Assembly (NCBI GenBank): GCA_012031565.1
Contig: JAAUUM010000003.1
Span: 1 to 57,814, forward strand
Direction: 5' to 3'
Origin: Synechococcaceae cyanobacterium SM2_3_2
Lineage (GTDB): Bacteria; Cyanobacteriota; Cyanobacteriia; Thermostichales; Thermostichaceae
Length of the DNA: 57,814 nucleotides
The translations under genes were made by a program, and so were the position numbers. Below are positions 3,983-38,809 of this stretch, piece by piece. Under the pieces are notes generated by a model. The model made no database searches and had not been told where the DNA came from. It saw only the letters and a list, made by a program, of their open reading frames with translations. The first letter of the stretch is position 1. The number at the start of each line of letters is the position of its first letter.

Positions 3983-5144
3983 ATGCCCCCCCGCAACAGC
4001 AGCAGCAAAGCCAAAAGCTCCGCCAAAACCACCCCCTCTTCTGAGGATCAAACGGATAAGCGCAAAGCGTTGGAGCAGGTGCTGGGGCAGATCGAGCGCA
4101 ACTTTGGCAAAGGGGCCATCATGCGGCTGGGGGATGCCTCGCGGATGCGGGTGGAAACTGTTCCCAGTGGAGCCTTGACCCTGGATCTGGCCTTGGGGGG
4201 GGATATCCCAAAGGTCGGGTCATCGAGGTGTTTGGCCCAGAATCTTCTGGTAAAACCTCCATCGCCCTCCATGCCATCGCTGAGGTGCAGAAGCAGGGGG
4301 GAACGGTCGCCTTTGTCGATGCCGAGCACGCTTTGGATCCCATCTATGCGGCTGCATTGGGGGTCAACATCCAGGACTTGCTGGTGTCTCAGCCCGATAC
4401 CGGTGAGGATGCCCTTGAAATCGTCGATCAATTGGTGCGCTCTGCTGCGGTGGATGTGGTGGTGGTGGATTCGGTTGCTGCCCTCGTGCCCCGAGCCGAG
4501 ATCGAGGGGGATATGGAGATGCCCATGTGGGACTACAAGCCCGCCTGATGAGTCAAGCCCTACGCAAAATCGCTGGCAACATCAGCAAGACGGGATCCAT
4601 TGTCATCTTTCTCAACCAGTTGCGCTCCAAGATTGGCGGCATGGGCTATGGCCCCCAAGAGACCACCACCGGTGGCAATGCCCTGAAGTTTTACGCTTCT
4701 GTCCGACTGGATATCCGCCGCATTCAAACCTTGAAAAAGGGCAATGAAGAATATGGCATCCGCGCCCGTGTCAAAGTGGTGAAAAACAAAGTTGCCCCTC
4801 CCTTCCGCAAGGCAGAATTTGACATCATCTTTGGACAGGGGATCTCATCCGTTGGTTGCATTGTGGACTTGGGGGAAGAAGCCGGAATCCTGAAGCGGCG
4901 GGGAGCTTGGTACAGCTACAAGGGCGAAAACGTCTCCCAAGGACGCGACAATCTGATCATCTACCTCAAAGAGAACCCAGAAACATTGGCAGAGGTAGAA
5001 GCCGCCCTGCGGGCCAAACTGGCTGAGGGGGTGACGGTTTCTGCCACATCGGTGGTGCCCTCCAATGATGACGAGGACGAGGATACTGAAGTCGAAGAGA
5101 TGGAGTTGGACGGAGAGGACACCTCTGGAGATGAGGACTTTTGA
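3983..5144 (+). CDS. recA: RecA recombinase, reading frame interrupted twice
   Basis: RecA forms filaments on single-stranded DNA, drives strand exchange and triggers LexA self-cleavage. The parts read in three frames: [12 protein letters not shown]... to LTLDLALGG; then [20 protein letters not shown] (Walker A GPESSGKT) to EIEGDM; then [20 protein letters not shown] with the DNA-binding loop region [20 protein letters not shown], ending in an acidic tail ([11 protein letters not shown]...). The first break is a run of eight G at 4195-4202 where nine are needed. The second is ATGGAG near 4513-4518 where ATGGGAG restores the expected [11 protein letters not shown]. With both bases restored the protein would be 387 residues. 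Codons after the breaks are fully conserved, so sequence errors are more likely than a dead gene. Confidence 0.93.
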
Positions 5145-6816: not shown

Positions 6817-9122
6817 GTGACTGCCTACACCCCCGACCAACTGAAAGCCCGTGGTTTGACTGCGGCAGAATATGACCTGATCGTGGAACGGCTGGGGCGG
6901 GATCCCAATCCCAATGAGCTGGCCATGTTTGGGGTGATGTGGTCGGAGCACTGCTGTTACAAAAACTCCCGCCCGCTGCTGAAAACCTTTCCCACGACCG
7001 GGGAGCGCATCCTGGTGGGGCCGGGGGAGAACGCCGGAGTGGTGGACTTGGGGGATGGGGATCGGCTGGCCTTCAAAATTGAATCCCACAATCATCCCTC
7101 CGCCGTCGAGCCTTTTCAGGGGGCTACCACTGGGGTGGGGGCATCTTGCGGGATATTTTCACGATGGGGGCGCGACCGATTGCCCTGCTCAACTCGCTGC
7201 GCTTCGGATCCCCCACGGATCCCCAAACCCAACGGCTGCTGTCTGGGGTGGTGGCGGGGATCGCCCACTATGGCAACTGTACCGGCGTGCCCACTGTTGG
7301 GGGCGAAGTGGCTTTTGATCCCTGCTATCAGGGCAATCCTTTGGTCAATGCCATGTGTTTGGGGTTGATGGAGACCGCCGATATCGTCAAATCCGGTGCC
7401 CAGGGGATCGGCAATCCGGTGCTCTATGTGGGATCCACCACGGGGCGAGATGGCATGGGGGGAGCCAGTTTTGCCAGCGCCGAATTGGACGAAGAGTCGG
7501 GCCAGGATCGGCCTGCGGTGCAGGTAGGGGATCCCTTTGCGGGCAAGTGCCTGATCGAAGCCTGTCTGGAGGCTTTTGCCACCGGGGCAGTGGTGGCGGC
7601 ACAGGATATGGGGGCGGCGGGCATCACCTGCTCCACCGCAGAGATGGCGGCCAAAGGCGGGGTGGGCATCGAGTTTGACCTGGATCGGGTGCCCGTGCGG
7701 GAGACGGGAATGTTGCCCTGGGAGTTTTTGCTGTCGGAGTCACAAGAGCGGATGCTGTTTGTAGCACAGGCGGGGCGAGAGGATGAGCTGATCGAGATCT
7801 TCCAGCGCTGGGGCTTGCAGGCGGTGGTGGCGGGCAAGGTGATCGAGGATCCCATCGTTCGCATCCTGCATCAGGGATCCGTGGCGGCTGAGGTGCCAGC
7901 GACAGCCTTGGCAGAGAATACCCCCGTCTATGTGCGGGAGATCTTGGCCGATCCACCAGACTACGCCCAACAGGCATGGCAGGCTACCCCTTGGACAACC
8001 GGGATCCCCAGCCCCAAAGGGATCCAAGTGGAGACAACCCTCCTGAGCTGGGATGAAATTCTACTCAAGCTGTTGGGCAGTCCAACCATTGCCTCCAAAC
8101 AGGCCATCTATCGCCAATATGACCATCAGGTGCAGAACAATACGGTGGTCTTGCCCGGTGCTGGGGATGCGGCGGTGATGCGGATTCGGTCACAGGACTT
8201 TGGCATCGGAGAGGTGCCAACCTTGGCCTCATCCCAGAAGGGAGTGGCGGCGACGGTGGATGGCAACAGTCGCTGGGTCTATCTGGATCCCTATGAAGGG
8301 GGCAAGGCGGCAGTGGCAGAAGCCGCCCGCAACCTTAGCTGTGTCGGGGCGGATCCCCTGGCCGTTACGGACAACCTCAACTTTGGCAATCCCGAAAATC
8401 CGGTGGTCTATTGGCAATTGGCGGAAGCCTGTCGGGGCATTTCGGATGCTTGCCGCGCCTTGGGCACGCCGGTGACGGGGGGCAATGTCTCTCTCTATAA
8501 CGAGACCTTGGTGAATGGTCGCTCTCAGGCTATCTATCCCACCCCTGTGATCGGCATGGTGGGCTTGATCTCAGATTTGAGCCGGGTTTGCGGCCAAGGC
8601 TGGCAAACGGCGGGGGATCCGATCTATCTTTTGGGATCCCAAGCGGCCACCTCACTGGGGGGATCCGAGTTGACGGCGCAGCTCTATCAGTCCATCACAG
8701 GTCGTCCGGCAGCCATAGACCTAGACTTGGAAGGACAAGTACAAGCGGCTTGTCGGCACGGGATCCGGCAAAGGTGGATCCGCTCAGCTCATGATTGCAG
8801 CGAGGGGGGGCTGGCAGTTGCCCTGGCGGAAAGCTGTCTGAGTGGACACTTAGGAGCCGAGATTCAGCTACCTCAGAGTGCCGATTGTCTCGACAAACTC
8901 CTGTTTGGAGAAGGGGGATCCCGGATTGTGGTGTCGGTGGATCCCAGTCATCAAAAGGCTTGGCAGGACTATCTGCAACAGGCGCTCCCTCAGCAGTGGA
9001 TCCATCTGGGCCAAGTCCAAACAGCATCCCTCAGCATTCACACTAATGAAGGGATCCCTATCGTGGCAGCGCTGGCGATTGAAACCATGCGGGAGCAGTA
9101 TGACTCTGGCTTGATGCTGTAG
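6817..9122 (+). CDS. purL: Phosphoribosylformylglycinamidine synthase II, frame interrupted
   Basis: The ATP-using large subunit of FGAM synthase, which converts FGAR to FGAM in purine synthesis together with PurS and PurQ. Seen: [36 protein letters not shown], the substrate motif [14 protein letters not shown], then [20 protein letters not shown], and [10 protein letters not shown] near the middle of the second half. The frame breaks near 7136-7141: five G where six give [14 protein letters not shown]. With that base restored it is 768 residues, normal for the small PurL type. GTG start at 6817. The stop at 9120-9122 directly abuts the convergent cobK stop. Confidence 0.93.
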
Positions 9123-23224: not shown

Positions 23225-24019
23225 CTACCCCAGAGCTGTCTTCAGCTCCCGACAAAAGGATCCCACCGCTTGGATCCCTTCAGCAGGAGCCGCCGCTTGA
23301 GCCAGCCGTTGCACAAAAGCACTGCCCACAATCGCAGCATCAGCGCCCCAATCCACCACCTGACGGGCTTGATCAGGGGAAGAAATGCCAAAACCCACCC
23401 CAATCGGCAAAGAGGTTTGCTGCCGCAGACTCCCCAACAACTCAGGGATCCGCGTGGCCAATGTCTGCCGCTGCCCGGTCACACCCGTGGTGCTGACCAA
23501 GTAGACAAATCCAGACGAGCGCTGAGCAATCTGATGCATCCGCTCCGGCGTACTGGTGGGAGCCACCAACAGGATCACATCTAAATCATGAGCTTTGGCC
23601 GTATCGATCAAAGGCTGCGACTCCTCCACCGGCAGATCAGGCACCACTAAACCACTACAGCCCGCCTGCCGCACCTTGGCCATAAAGGGATCCAAGCCCG
23701 CTCGATAGATGGGGTTGTAGTAGGTGAACAACACCACCGGAGCCTTGAGGCTCAAGCCTGCTAGCCCTGCCAAAATCGCCTCCAACCGCGTCCCCTTTTG
23801 CAAGGCCCGGGTCGCCGCCGCCTGGATCACCGATCCATCTGCCAAGGGATCCGAGTAGGGCACCCCCAGCTCGATTACATCTGCCCCATTGTCATCCAGA
23901 GCCTGTAATGCCGCCCAAGTGGTATCAAGATCGGGATCCCCGGCGGTGATAAAGGGGATTAGGGCTTTAGAACCAGTGGTCTTGAGGTGGGCAAATCGTT
24001 CAGAAATAGAGACACTCAC
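23225..24019 (-). CDS. trpA: Tryptophan synthase alpha subunit
   Basis: 264 residues, TIM barrel. It splits indole-3-glycerol phosphate to indole, passed to TrpB. The catalytic Glu lies in DNGADVIELGVPYSDPLADG together with the Asp of the YSDPLADG loop; the phosphate-binding end is VGFGISSPDQARQV and GADAAIVGSAFVQ. The start overlaps the stop of serA by four bases, which suggests co-transcription from serA. trpB is not in the window. Confidence 0.96.
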   Translation of the reverse strand: MSVSISERFAHLKTTGSKALIPFITAGDPDLDTTWAALQALDDNGADVIELGVPYSDPLADGSVIQAAATRALQKGTRLEAILAGLAGLSLKAPVVLFTYYNPIYRAGLDPFMAKVRQAGCSGLVVPDLPVEESQPLIDTAKAHDLDVILLVAPTSTPERMHQIAQRSSGFVYLVSTTGVTGQRQTLATRIPELLGSLRQQTSLPIGVGFGISSPDQARQVVDWGADAAIVGSAFVQRLAQAAAPAEGIQAVGSFCRELKTALG

Positions 24020-25595
24020 AGATTCACCACAAACGCATCCCGGATCCCAGGCTCTTTACGGACTTCCTCGATGATGCCATCCGGCAGCGGATCATCCAGG
24101 CTCAGCACCATCACCGCGTCACCACGGATAATTTTGCGACCCACCTGCATACTGGCGATGTTGACATTGTAGGCTCCTAAGAGGGTGCCAATCTTGCCGA
24201 TCAAACCGGGCATATCTCGGTGAACGGTCATCAGCATATTGGCGGCAGGTGGCACGTTGATGGGGAAGCCATCGATCTCGGTCACCCGCACTTCCCGTTC
24301 CCCAATCAAGGCTCCCGTCACCGACCTCAGACCATGAGGCCCTTGTGCGGTGAGGTGAATTGCCCCTGAATAATCCTTCACGGAGGGATCCCGGGTTTCC
24401 ACCACGCGGATTCCCCGCTCTTTGGCCTCAATAGTGGCATTGACATAGTTGACCCGTTCCTGCAAAGCCAGTGTCAATAGGCCTTTCAAGGCAGCAATGA
24501 TCATGGGCTGACCATCTTTTTCGGCCAAGTCCCCCTGCAACCGGATCTCCAACTGGCTGACCCGATCCCCCGCCAACTGGCCCACCAGGTTGCCCAGCGT
24601 TTCCGCCAAGTCCAGATAGGGCTTCAATTTCTCCAGTATTTCCGGCTGCAAACCAGGGATATTCACTGCTGAGCGGGCGGGTAACCCCAACAACACATCA
24701 CGGATCTGCTCTGCCACATCGATCGCCACATTCACCTGCGCCTCTTCGGTGGACGCCCCGAGGTGAGGAGTCAGCAACATCTCGGATCCCAGCTCAAATA
24801 AAGGCGAGGATTCCAACGGTTCGGTGGCAAACACATCCAAAGCAGCCCCAGCGATTTGCTTGGCTTTCAGAGCCTCATAGAGGGCTTGCTCATCGATTAA
24901 TCCGCCCCGTGCACAGTTGATCAGCCGTGCCGTCGGCTTCATCTTTCTAAAGGCTTCGGCACCAAAAGGTTGGCAGTCTCTGGCGTTTTGGGGATATGCA
25001 GGGTGATGTAGTCGGAATCCTGTAAGAGGGTGTCCATATCCACAAGGCGCACCCCCAGTTGTTGGGCTCGCTCCAGAGAGAGATAAGGATCAAAAGCCAA
25101 CAGCTTCATACCCATCGCCGTCGCAATATGGGCCACATGGGATCCGATCCGACCCAAGCCCACAACCCCCAGAGTCTTTTTATAGACCTCCACACCCACA
25201 AACTTCTGGCGCTCCCAACGGCCTGCCTTGAGAGAGGTGCTGGCCTCGGCAATGTGACGAGAGAGAGCCATCATCAAGGAGACGGCGTGTTCAGCTGCGG
25301 CAATGGTGTTGCCCTCTGGGGAATTGACCACCAGGATCCCGGCTTTAGTAGCAACGGGCACATCCACGTTGTCTACCCCCACCCCAGCCCGACCAATGAT
25401 CTTGAGCTTGGTGCCTGCTTCGATCACCTCCCGTGTGACCTTGGTGCCTGAGCGAATCATGATGGCGTCATACTCAGGGATCACCTTCACCAACTCTTCA
25501 GGAGTCAGCTTCAGCTCGACATCCACTTGGGCAACTTGTGAGAGGATGTCAATCCCACTGGGATCGATCCGGTCAGTGACGATGACTTTGGGCAT
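24016..25595 (-). CDS. serA: D-3-phosphoglycerate dehydrogenase, frame interrupted
   Basis: First step of serine synthesis from 3-phosphoglycerate. The N-terminal half has VTDRIDPSGIDILSQ and the NAD-binding GVVGLGRIGSHVA. The C-terminal half has NCARGGLIDE, the intervening (ASB) domain and a C-terminal ACT domain (DMPGLIGKIGTLLGAYNVNI). The frame breaks near 24962: the plus strand shows CACCAAAAGG where CACCCAAAAGG would join TANLLG to AEAFRKMKPTARLINCARGG. With that base the enzyme is about 526 residues, the long SerA type. Overlap with trpA indicates an operon. Confidence 0.93.
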
Positions 25596-37372: not shown

Positions 37373-38251
37373 TCAATAGGGACGGCTTTCCAACAGAGCC
37401 AGCCCAGTGGGATTGCTGCTGCCCCCCAAAGGTTCTAACGTCACCCAAAAATGCTGAGGATCCCCGTCCAGGGTGGGAGCAAAACTATCGCTCAACCACT
37501 GCACCGTGCCATCTGTCGCACTCATAAAGGTACCGACACTAAGGGCTTGGTTGGGATCAGCACTGCGTGTCCACAGTTGATAGGTGAGGCCGGGATGCAC
37601 GGTGGGGATCTGTGTACCCAGCAGTAGAGCGCGATTCTCACTAGGAGACCACAACAGTTGGGCTAAAGTACCACTCTGAAGCTGGGGATCCCGGAGGGTC
37701 AGACGACGAATATCGGCTTGGTGCTGCCATTGCTGATAGGTGGCTTGCAGATCGACACTGGCTCCAGGCTCCGGTAGGGAGATGCGGGCCAAGAGGCCAG
37801 ATAGCTGATGCCACCGCCACAAGCTGATGCCTGTACTGATGCCCAGTCCTACCACTCCCAGGGCTAAAAGGTTGATCAGCCACGGGGATCCCTGAGTAGA
37901 AAAACCTCTCCGCTCCGCTGATTGGGGACGCTGCCAAGGCCATCGAGGGGAAGTCGGTAGAGCATAAGACCGGGCTAGCGCATAAAGCCATAGGGCAACT
38001 GAGCGATCCCGACGTAGATCAAAACTGTCTGCTTGTCGCCAACTCTGCTCAAAAACTTGACGTACCACCTCGTCAGCTTGATGAGGCTGGGCCAGCAGAG
38101 AGCGGGCGATGCTCAAGATCCTGTCTCGATAGCGATCTTTCAACAAAAAATAGGCACGCCGTTCTCGCGTTTGCATCTGACAGAGCAGCTCAAAATCTGT
38201 CTCGGGGTGATCGAGGGGATGGTGGATAGGGTGAGGATCAGTGAAAGTCAT
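37373..38251 (-). CDS. Fusion: ECF sigma region 2, membrane helix and RskA-type anti-sigma domain
   Basis: 292 residues. The N-terminal part (about 20-95) reads like sigma-70 region 2 of ECF factors: FLLKDRYRDRILSIARSLL, ADEVVRQVFEQSW, VALWLYALARSY. No region 4 (the -35-binding HTH) follows. Instead a linker and one membrane helix (INLLALGVVGLGISTGISLW, about 122-141) lead to an outside domain matching anti-sigma-K factor RskA: GLTYQLWTRSADPNQALSVG then FWVTLEPLGGSSNPTGLALL. One continuous frame. It could sequester or compete for RNA polymerase core as a membrane-tethered regulator; inference only. The ATG at 38251 is preferred to a TTG at 38281. Confidence 0.85.
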   Translation of the reverse strand: MTFTDPHPIHHPLDHPETDFELLCQMQTRERRAYFLLKDRYRDRILSIARSLLAQPHQADEVVRQVFEQSWRQADSFDLRRDRSVALWLYALARSYALPTSPRWPWQRPQSAERRGFSTQGSPWLINLLALGVVGLGISTGISLWRWHQLSGLLARISLPEPGASVDLQATYQQWQHQADIRRLTLRDPQLQSGTLAQLLWSPSENRALLLGTQIPTVHPGLTYQLWTRSADPNQALSVGTFMSATDGTVQWLSDSFAPTLDGDPQHFWVTLEPLGGSSNPTGLALLESRPY

Positions 38252-38398: not shown

Positions 38399-38464
38399 CC
38401 ATAGGTAGAACTACGATCTCTAAGTCAATCAAGCTCTAAGTCAATCAAGCTCTAAGTCAATCAA
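38399..38464. repeat. Tandem 16-base repeat
   Basis: Three copies of TCTAAGTCAATCAAGC lie next to the 3' end of tatA, with a smaller repeat of AGTCCATA just before at about 38388-38405. The last copy overlaps the tatA stop region. Confidence 0.75.
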
Positions 38465-38712
38465 GACTTGGTTGATTCGGCAGGTTCGGGGGCGGCGGCT
38501 TCAGGTTCCACGTCAGGAGTGGGGTTGTCCATCTCTTTTTTGAACCCCTTGATGGCTTGGCCGATGGAACTGCCCAACTCAGGGAGCTTTTTGGGGCCAA
38601 AGACCACAAGGGCAATCAAGCCAATCACCGCCATCTCAGGGATCCCCATGCCAAAAATGCCAGCAGCCAAGAGCGGAGCGCTAATGTTGGCGTCGATCAC
38701 AAAGCCGACCAT
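38461..38712 (-). CDS. tatA: Sec-independent translocase subunit TatA
   Basis: 83 residues. The core IPEMAVIGLIALVVFGPKKL then PELGSSIGQAIKGFKKEM gives the membrane helix, FGP hinge and amphipathic helix of TatA/B. The tail is acidic (VEPEAAAPEPAES). About 20 extra N-terminal residues (MVGFVIDANISAPLLAAGIF) precede the usual start; the ATG at 38712 has GGGAGAG ahead, so the extension looks real. It exports folded twin-arginine proteins into the periplasm or thylakoid lumen. tatC is not in the window. Confidence 0.9.
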   Translation of the reverse strand: MVGFVIDANISAPLLAAGIFGMGIPEMAVIGLIALVVFGPKKLPELGSSIGQAIKGFKKEMDNPTPDVEPEAAAPEPAESTKS

Positions 38713-38809
38713 ATGTGTCTCTCCCACTTTTCTACGTCACACCCTAGCACGTCCATTACCGAAAAATGGGTGGACTCCACCTCAATTCCTTACCATCCTG
38801 AAGCCTTCC

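Follow-up and report, generated by a model that had tools for sequence, protein, structure and literature searches.

A sigma-70 region 2 domain joined through a membrane helix to an RskA outer domain in one cyanobacterial family: a possible membrane-tethered sigma mimic

The window analyzed here, the whole stretch of 57,814 nucleotides from Synechococcaceae cyanobacterium SM2_3_2, carries on its minus strand a gene in which a single uninterrupted frame, running from an ATG at 38251 to a stop codon at 37373-37375, joins part of a sigma factor to part of a membrane-bound anti-sigma factor. The features of the locus are as follows.

37373..38251, minus strand: fusion gene, 292 aa, in the order sigma-70 region 2, linker, one membrane helix, RskA_C
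37952..38203, minus strand: sigma-2-like domain, residues 17-100 (Pfam 39-96), by Pfam, structure model and Foldseek
38036..38086, minus strand: region 2.2 helix, residues 56-72, PHQADEVVRQVFEQSWR, by residue table by position
37961..37972, minus strand: region 2.4 motif, residues 94-97, by alignment and residue table
37883..37951, minus strand: variable linker, residues 101-123, with an invariant RWxW, by alignment; low model confidence
37814..37882, minus strand: single membrane helix, about residues 124-146, by hydropathy in 8/8 proteins; modelled helix 124-157
37406..37759, minus strand: RskA_C domain, residues 165-282, beta-sandwich, predicted to lie on the outer side, by Pfam and model
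38461..38727, minus strand: tatA/E-like gene directly upstream of the fusion, at a distance of 209 nt; the two genes are adjacent in this orientation in 8/8 genomes

The sequence-only reading of this locus had described a region 2 without region 4, a membrane helix and the RskA outer domain in one frame, and had proposed an HMM search of both halves. With Pfam, Sigma70_r2 matches residues 39-96 of the fusion (E 1.1e-8, 35.2 bits, cut-off 24) and RskA_C matches residues 165-282 (E 3.6e-13, 50.4 bits, cut-off 29.4), while Pfam, hydropathy and the model all place RskA_C after one membrane helix. The region-4 model has no match in the window fusion at E up to 1, and none in any of the eight family fusions at E up to 0.01. 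By Pfam and hydropathy, the description is exact. The further claim, that a half sigma factor replaces the anti-sigma domain, is correct as well; the sigma-2 domain occupies the place of the RskA-type cytoplasmic anti-sigma domain, and the models of N-terminal anti-sigma domains (RskA_N, zf-HC2) have no match in the window fusion at E up to 1.

The same full-length fusion, free of stops and 42-50% identical, is present in 7/7 other genomes of the family, which represent three genera when the window's own is counted. The family set is therefore n = 8 genomes including the window's, and two of the relatives are single-contig genomes. Both Pfam models match all eight proteins with the domains in the same order, and hydropathy predicts one membrane helix in the window fusion and in every relative. 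The only other genome examined of the same order carries a separate sigma gene alone, without the fusion. About 280 other genomes of the class showed no fusion, their sigma and RskA being encoded by separate genes, and neither did 386 genomes sampled across the phylum. These data confirm that the architecture is real and that the fusion is conserved across one cyanobacterial family.

A sequence error was a fair worry, since three other genes of the window are frameshifted. The recA gene (window 3983-5144, plus strand) has at least two frameshifts, so that its reading runs through three frames; purL (6817-9122, plus strand) falls into two overlapping frames through a frameshift; and serA, for phosphoglycerate dehydrogenase (24016-25595, minus strand), is likewise broken by a frameshift, giving two frames. 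Together these indicate indel errors in the window's contig. A merger of two genes through sequencing or assembly error, which such errors would make conceivable, nevertheless has next to no probability given the identical architecture and uninterrupted frame in seven other genomes, two of them single-contig, and we rejected it. Thus, neither of the findings that the sequence-only reading had named as evidence against a genuine fusion, its absence from close relatives or an error in the sequence, applies to this family.

The tatA/E-like gene is the only conserved neighbor found, lying on the same strand as the fusion in 8/8 family genomes at a distance of 73-238 nt. No sigma gene adjoins the fusion, and none of the other window genes from 28 to 46 kb was found beside it in the relatives. 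The conserved adjacency suggests that tatA and the fusion are co-transcribed. We rejected the adjacency as an ancient trait, as 30 tatA-family loci sampled across the class have no sigma or RskA homologue beside them. A conserved promoter between the two genes was also rejected, as there is no sigma-70-type site in the window and the intergenic DNA is poorly conserved.

Ordinary ECF-RskA_C operons, which we call K1 and K2, are located elsewhere in the family genomes. K1 is present in seven and missing from the window's genome, and K2 is present in seven and missing from the relative G101; these two genomes are each about 90% complete. An RskA paralogue occurs in every family genome, and in both genomes inspected a SigG gene is followed by a gene for a small SapG-like membrane anti-sigma factor, the names SigG and SapG being assigned in this analysis. 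In two members of the family, an anti-sigma gene of the cupin (ChrR-like) type follows an ECF gene (L142 and L136, in G043 and G101), and the ECFs of these two loci are, by profile score, the separate sigma-2 sequences nearest to the fusion. One further sigma gene is apparently cut between contigs, with region 2 at the end of G000:C81 and region 4 at the start of G000:C270.

Structure prediction of the fusion alone, also proposed in the sequence-only reading, is consistent with the assignment of both halves. In a first model, built from eight sequences, sigma-2 was of poor quality. Once the alignment also included ECF sequences, this half was modelled with pLDDT 89-97 as helices 19-27, 31-52, 56-72 and 85-97; since this addition biases that half towards the sigma fold, it is the sequence match that provides independent evidence for the fold. 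Foldseek aligns the modelled domain to region 2 of sigma-E bound to the -10 element with an rmsd of 1.3 A and a TM-score of 0.76-0.80 on target length. The RskA_C half is predicted to be a beta-sandwich in both models, and confidence in the linker is low in both. Directly after sigma-2, the RWxW motif (R103, W104, W106; window 37934-37945, minus strand) is invariant in 8/8 proteins despite the variable linker. A twin-arginine motif ahead of the membrane helix was rejected, as the alignment shows that it is not conserved.

For comparison of individual residues we used 77 cyanobacterial ECF domains, which are those nearest to the fusions. The fold-determining residues are kept in the fusions (L37, D39, R40, Y41, A49, L53, V62, V63, V66, F67, W71, W88 and L89). 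In contrast, F35, K38, R64, Q65 and D82 are invariant in the eight fusions and occur in 0/77 ECFs. K38 replaces the Tyr of 90% of ECFs, R64 replaces Gln or Leu, Q65 replaces in 8/8 fusions the Asp or Glu found in about 97% of ECFs, and D82 replaces mostly Gly; at position 51, the Lys or Arg of ECFs has become Ala or Ser. The RSR of region 2.4 has become AFQ, AFH or GFY in 7/8 fusions, and the window copy, with RSY, keeps R94-S95 only.

Several of these positions fall on a surface of known function. Positions 34, 35, 38 and 64 of the fusion correspond to RpoE 22, 23, 26 and 51, which are among ten sigma-2 positions that touch the anti-sigma domain in four of four solved complexes (PMC7406223, Table 2), and the sigma-2 surface that contacts the anti-sigma domain also binds the beta-prime clamp (PMC7406223). 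Rewritten positions account for 4/10 contact sites vs 6/69 (p = 0.02) or 9/69 (p = 0.054) others, by threshold, and across thresholds p spans 0.02 to 0.08. This comparison of sequences is suggestive, not strong, in indicating that the rewritten residues tend to lie on the protein-binding face, that is, the face for the clamp and for anti-sigma helix 4.

These replacements bear on the first mechanism put forward in the sequence-only reading, that the fusion is a polymerase decoy. In that case the membrane-held sigma-2 would bind the beta-prime clamp helices of core RNA polymerase in competition with real sigma factors, and would be released or withdrawn once RskA_C senses a signal. The partner is available in every genome, and the clamp-binding helices retain their hydrophobic core, with V62, V63, V66, F67 and W71 invariant. 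The charges required for beta-prime binding, however, are provided by the DAED motif of region 2.2 (PMC8999054), which reads QAEE in six relatives, QADE in the window copy and KTHD in G101. The two acids at positions 60-61 thus remain in 7/8 copies, but the first acid is lost in 8/8, G101 keeps a single acid, and the acid at position 65 is Gln in every copy, with R64 and K38 fixed beside it. These changes weaken the decoy mechanism, which we regard as possible but doubtful.

Selection on the fusion is strongest in its sigma part. Within genus g2, the sigma-2 half has a dN/dS of 0.04-0.08, as against 0.08-0.21 in RskA_C and 0.13-0.47 in the linker, which makes sigma-2 the most constrained part of the protein. 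Between genera, the sigma-2 domains of the fusions are 52-64% identical, vs 55-63% for true sigma paralogues. The low dN/dS, together with a between-genus identity like that of true sigma factors, argues that the sigma half is functional. This constraint weighs against the explanation that the domain has been reused structurally, its fold merely anchoring or dimerizing the protein at the membrane while the RskA_C sensor does the work, perhaps tied to the Tat translocase via tatA. While the adjacency of tatA in 8/8 genomes and the replaced surface residues of sigma-2 would fit such a role, the strength of selection on sigma-2 and the tendency of the fixed changes towards its protein-binding face do not, and we consider this explanation unlikely.

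In the tree, the fusions form one clade (support 100/100), whose stem measures 1.41 changes per site and whose internal branches are shorter. This argues for rapid change before the last common ancestor, followed by constraint, and from the sequences we would read the shape of the tree as a change of role and its subsequent fixation. Both halves resemble the products of operons of one kind, in which an ECF gene precedes a gene for a zinc-finger-RskA_C anti-sigma factor (e.g., L104 in G320). Both trees place the fusions nearest such operons, but the sigma-2 support is weak (89/22) and long branches call for caution. Therefore, we claim only a general origin, and not descent from one identified operon. 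A joint alignment of the fusions with RskA paralogues was discarded, as their membrane helix was misplaced in it. The fusion would have arisen by the joining of an ECF sigma gene to a neighboring RskA-type anti-sigma gene, region 4 and the anti-sigma domain being lost; one in-frame deletion would yield exactly the fusion protein. The name SigK in the sequence-only reading holds as a label only, since the separate genes most closely related to the fusion are those of cyanobacterial ECF/RskA_C operons and ECF genes of the cupin (ChrR-like) type, and not SigK in particular.

The fusion shares features with several described systems. It resembles operons of the SigK-RskA type, an ECF gene followed by a gene for an RskA_C membrane anti-sigma factor, in that its halves are homologous to their two products, and RskA is known to act as both activator and inhibitor of SigK (PMC7509140). 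The fusion differs from these in being one polypeptide, in having neither region 4 nor an anti-sigma domain, and in its altered promoter and clamp surfaces. IutY/ECF243, ECF48, ECF52, ECF53 and ECF36 likewise carry a sigma part and a membrane sensor on one chain, and for IutY proteolytic release is known (PMC8999054). However, descriptions of these treat them as sigma factors whose extension holds an anti-sigma part or a zinc-finger domain, whereas the fusion has no region 4 or anti-sigma domain. No open-access paper that we found describes a fusion of RskA_C to region 2 alone.

The second mechanism suggested in the sequence-only reading, pairing with a separate sigma factor, has its model in SigO-RsoA. 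The fusion would then be half of a two-piece sigma factor: its sigma-2 would be freed by proteolysis and cooperate with a separate region-4 protein, like RsoA with SigO in Bacillus subtilis. A region-2-only partner such as RsoA is a known arrangement (PMC8103513), and the window copy does retain R94-S95. RsoA, though, works with a region-4 protein, and no such partner was found for the fusion: the family has no region-4-only gene, its strong region-4 matches lying within full sigma frames or at contig edges. A conserved region-4 hit of ~97 aa, considered as a region-4-only partner, was rejected as a LuxR-type regulator (GerE 9.9e-22). Because the promoter-contact motif is lost in 7/8 copies and no region-4-only gene was found, the pairing is weakened, and we judge it unlikely.

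PhyR offers a further likeness. As in the fusion, its sigma fold is kept while the residues that bind promoter and core are degenerate, and PhyR acts by protein binding. It is soluble and has a receiver domain and a full ECF structure in its sigma-like part, whereas the fusion has none of these; Pfam finds no receiver domain in the fusion, and PhyR_sigma2 matches the window copy at E 0.016, below the cut-off. The fusion is thus not an ECF sigma factor, as it has no region 4, not an RskA anti-sigma factor, as it has no anti-sigma domain, and not a member of the PhyR family, as it has no receiver. Though not a PhyR member, it may work like the sigma-like domain of PhyR, whose correct ECF structure with degenerated promoter and core-polymerase regions is a precedent for a mimic (PMC8103513).

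We therefore favor, at a probability of about 40%, the reading that the fusion is a sigma-2 domain repurposed as a membrane-tethered mimic, whose binding to a protein partner is controlled by RskA_C. At the same probability, it would be a membrane-spanning pseudo-sigma, in which half of an ECF sigma factor is the cytoplasmic effector of an RskA-type sensor. Instead of initiating transcription, such a protein would pass on an envelope signal by sigma mimicry, its partner switch involving either an anti-sigma factor or the polymerase clamp. In this scheme, of which we infer the loss of sigma function, the partner, the topology and the release, a former sigma factor would have turned into a membrane-held docking module. 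RskA_C, on the outer side, would receive the signal and control partner binding by sigma-2 through conformational change or proteolytic release, as in other RskA-type proteins; by analogy with RskA in mycobacteria, sigma-2 may be released by proteolysis. The likeliest partner would be the helix-4 part of an anti-sigma domain, with the SapG-like protein and the RskA paralogue as candidates. Binding of the anti-sigma factor by sigma-2 would then, in the manner of PhyR with NepR, have the net effect of freeing a real ECF sigma factor.

In favor of the mimic we count the full-length conservation in 8/8 genomes, the strong purifying selection on sigma-2, the long stem branch followed by shorter ones, the loss of RSR in 7/8 copies, the fixed new residues on the sigma-2 face, the PhyR precedent and the fold match. 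Against it, the rewritten face is the same one that an anti-sigma helix would bind, and it may bind something else altogether. The enrichment of changes on this face is weak and rests on few independent sequences, and the ECFs compared are those nearest to the fusions. Among the RskA paralogues, the window's genome lacks K1 and G101 lacks K2, at about 90% completeness in both, and the window's copy still has R94-S95.

The known sigma mimic, PhyR, is a soluble response regulator. If the mimic reading is true, a membrane-bound half-sigma mimic adds a one-protein route from the envelope to the polymerase, and the family shows a sigma/anti-sigma operon turning into a third kind of regulator. F35/K38 and R64/Q65 are small conserved surfaces that are open to testing. 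Finally, searches that define ECF sigma factors by region 2 plus region 4 would overlook proteins of this kind.
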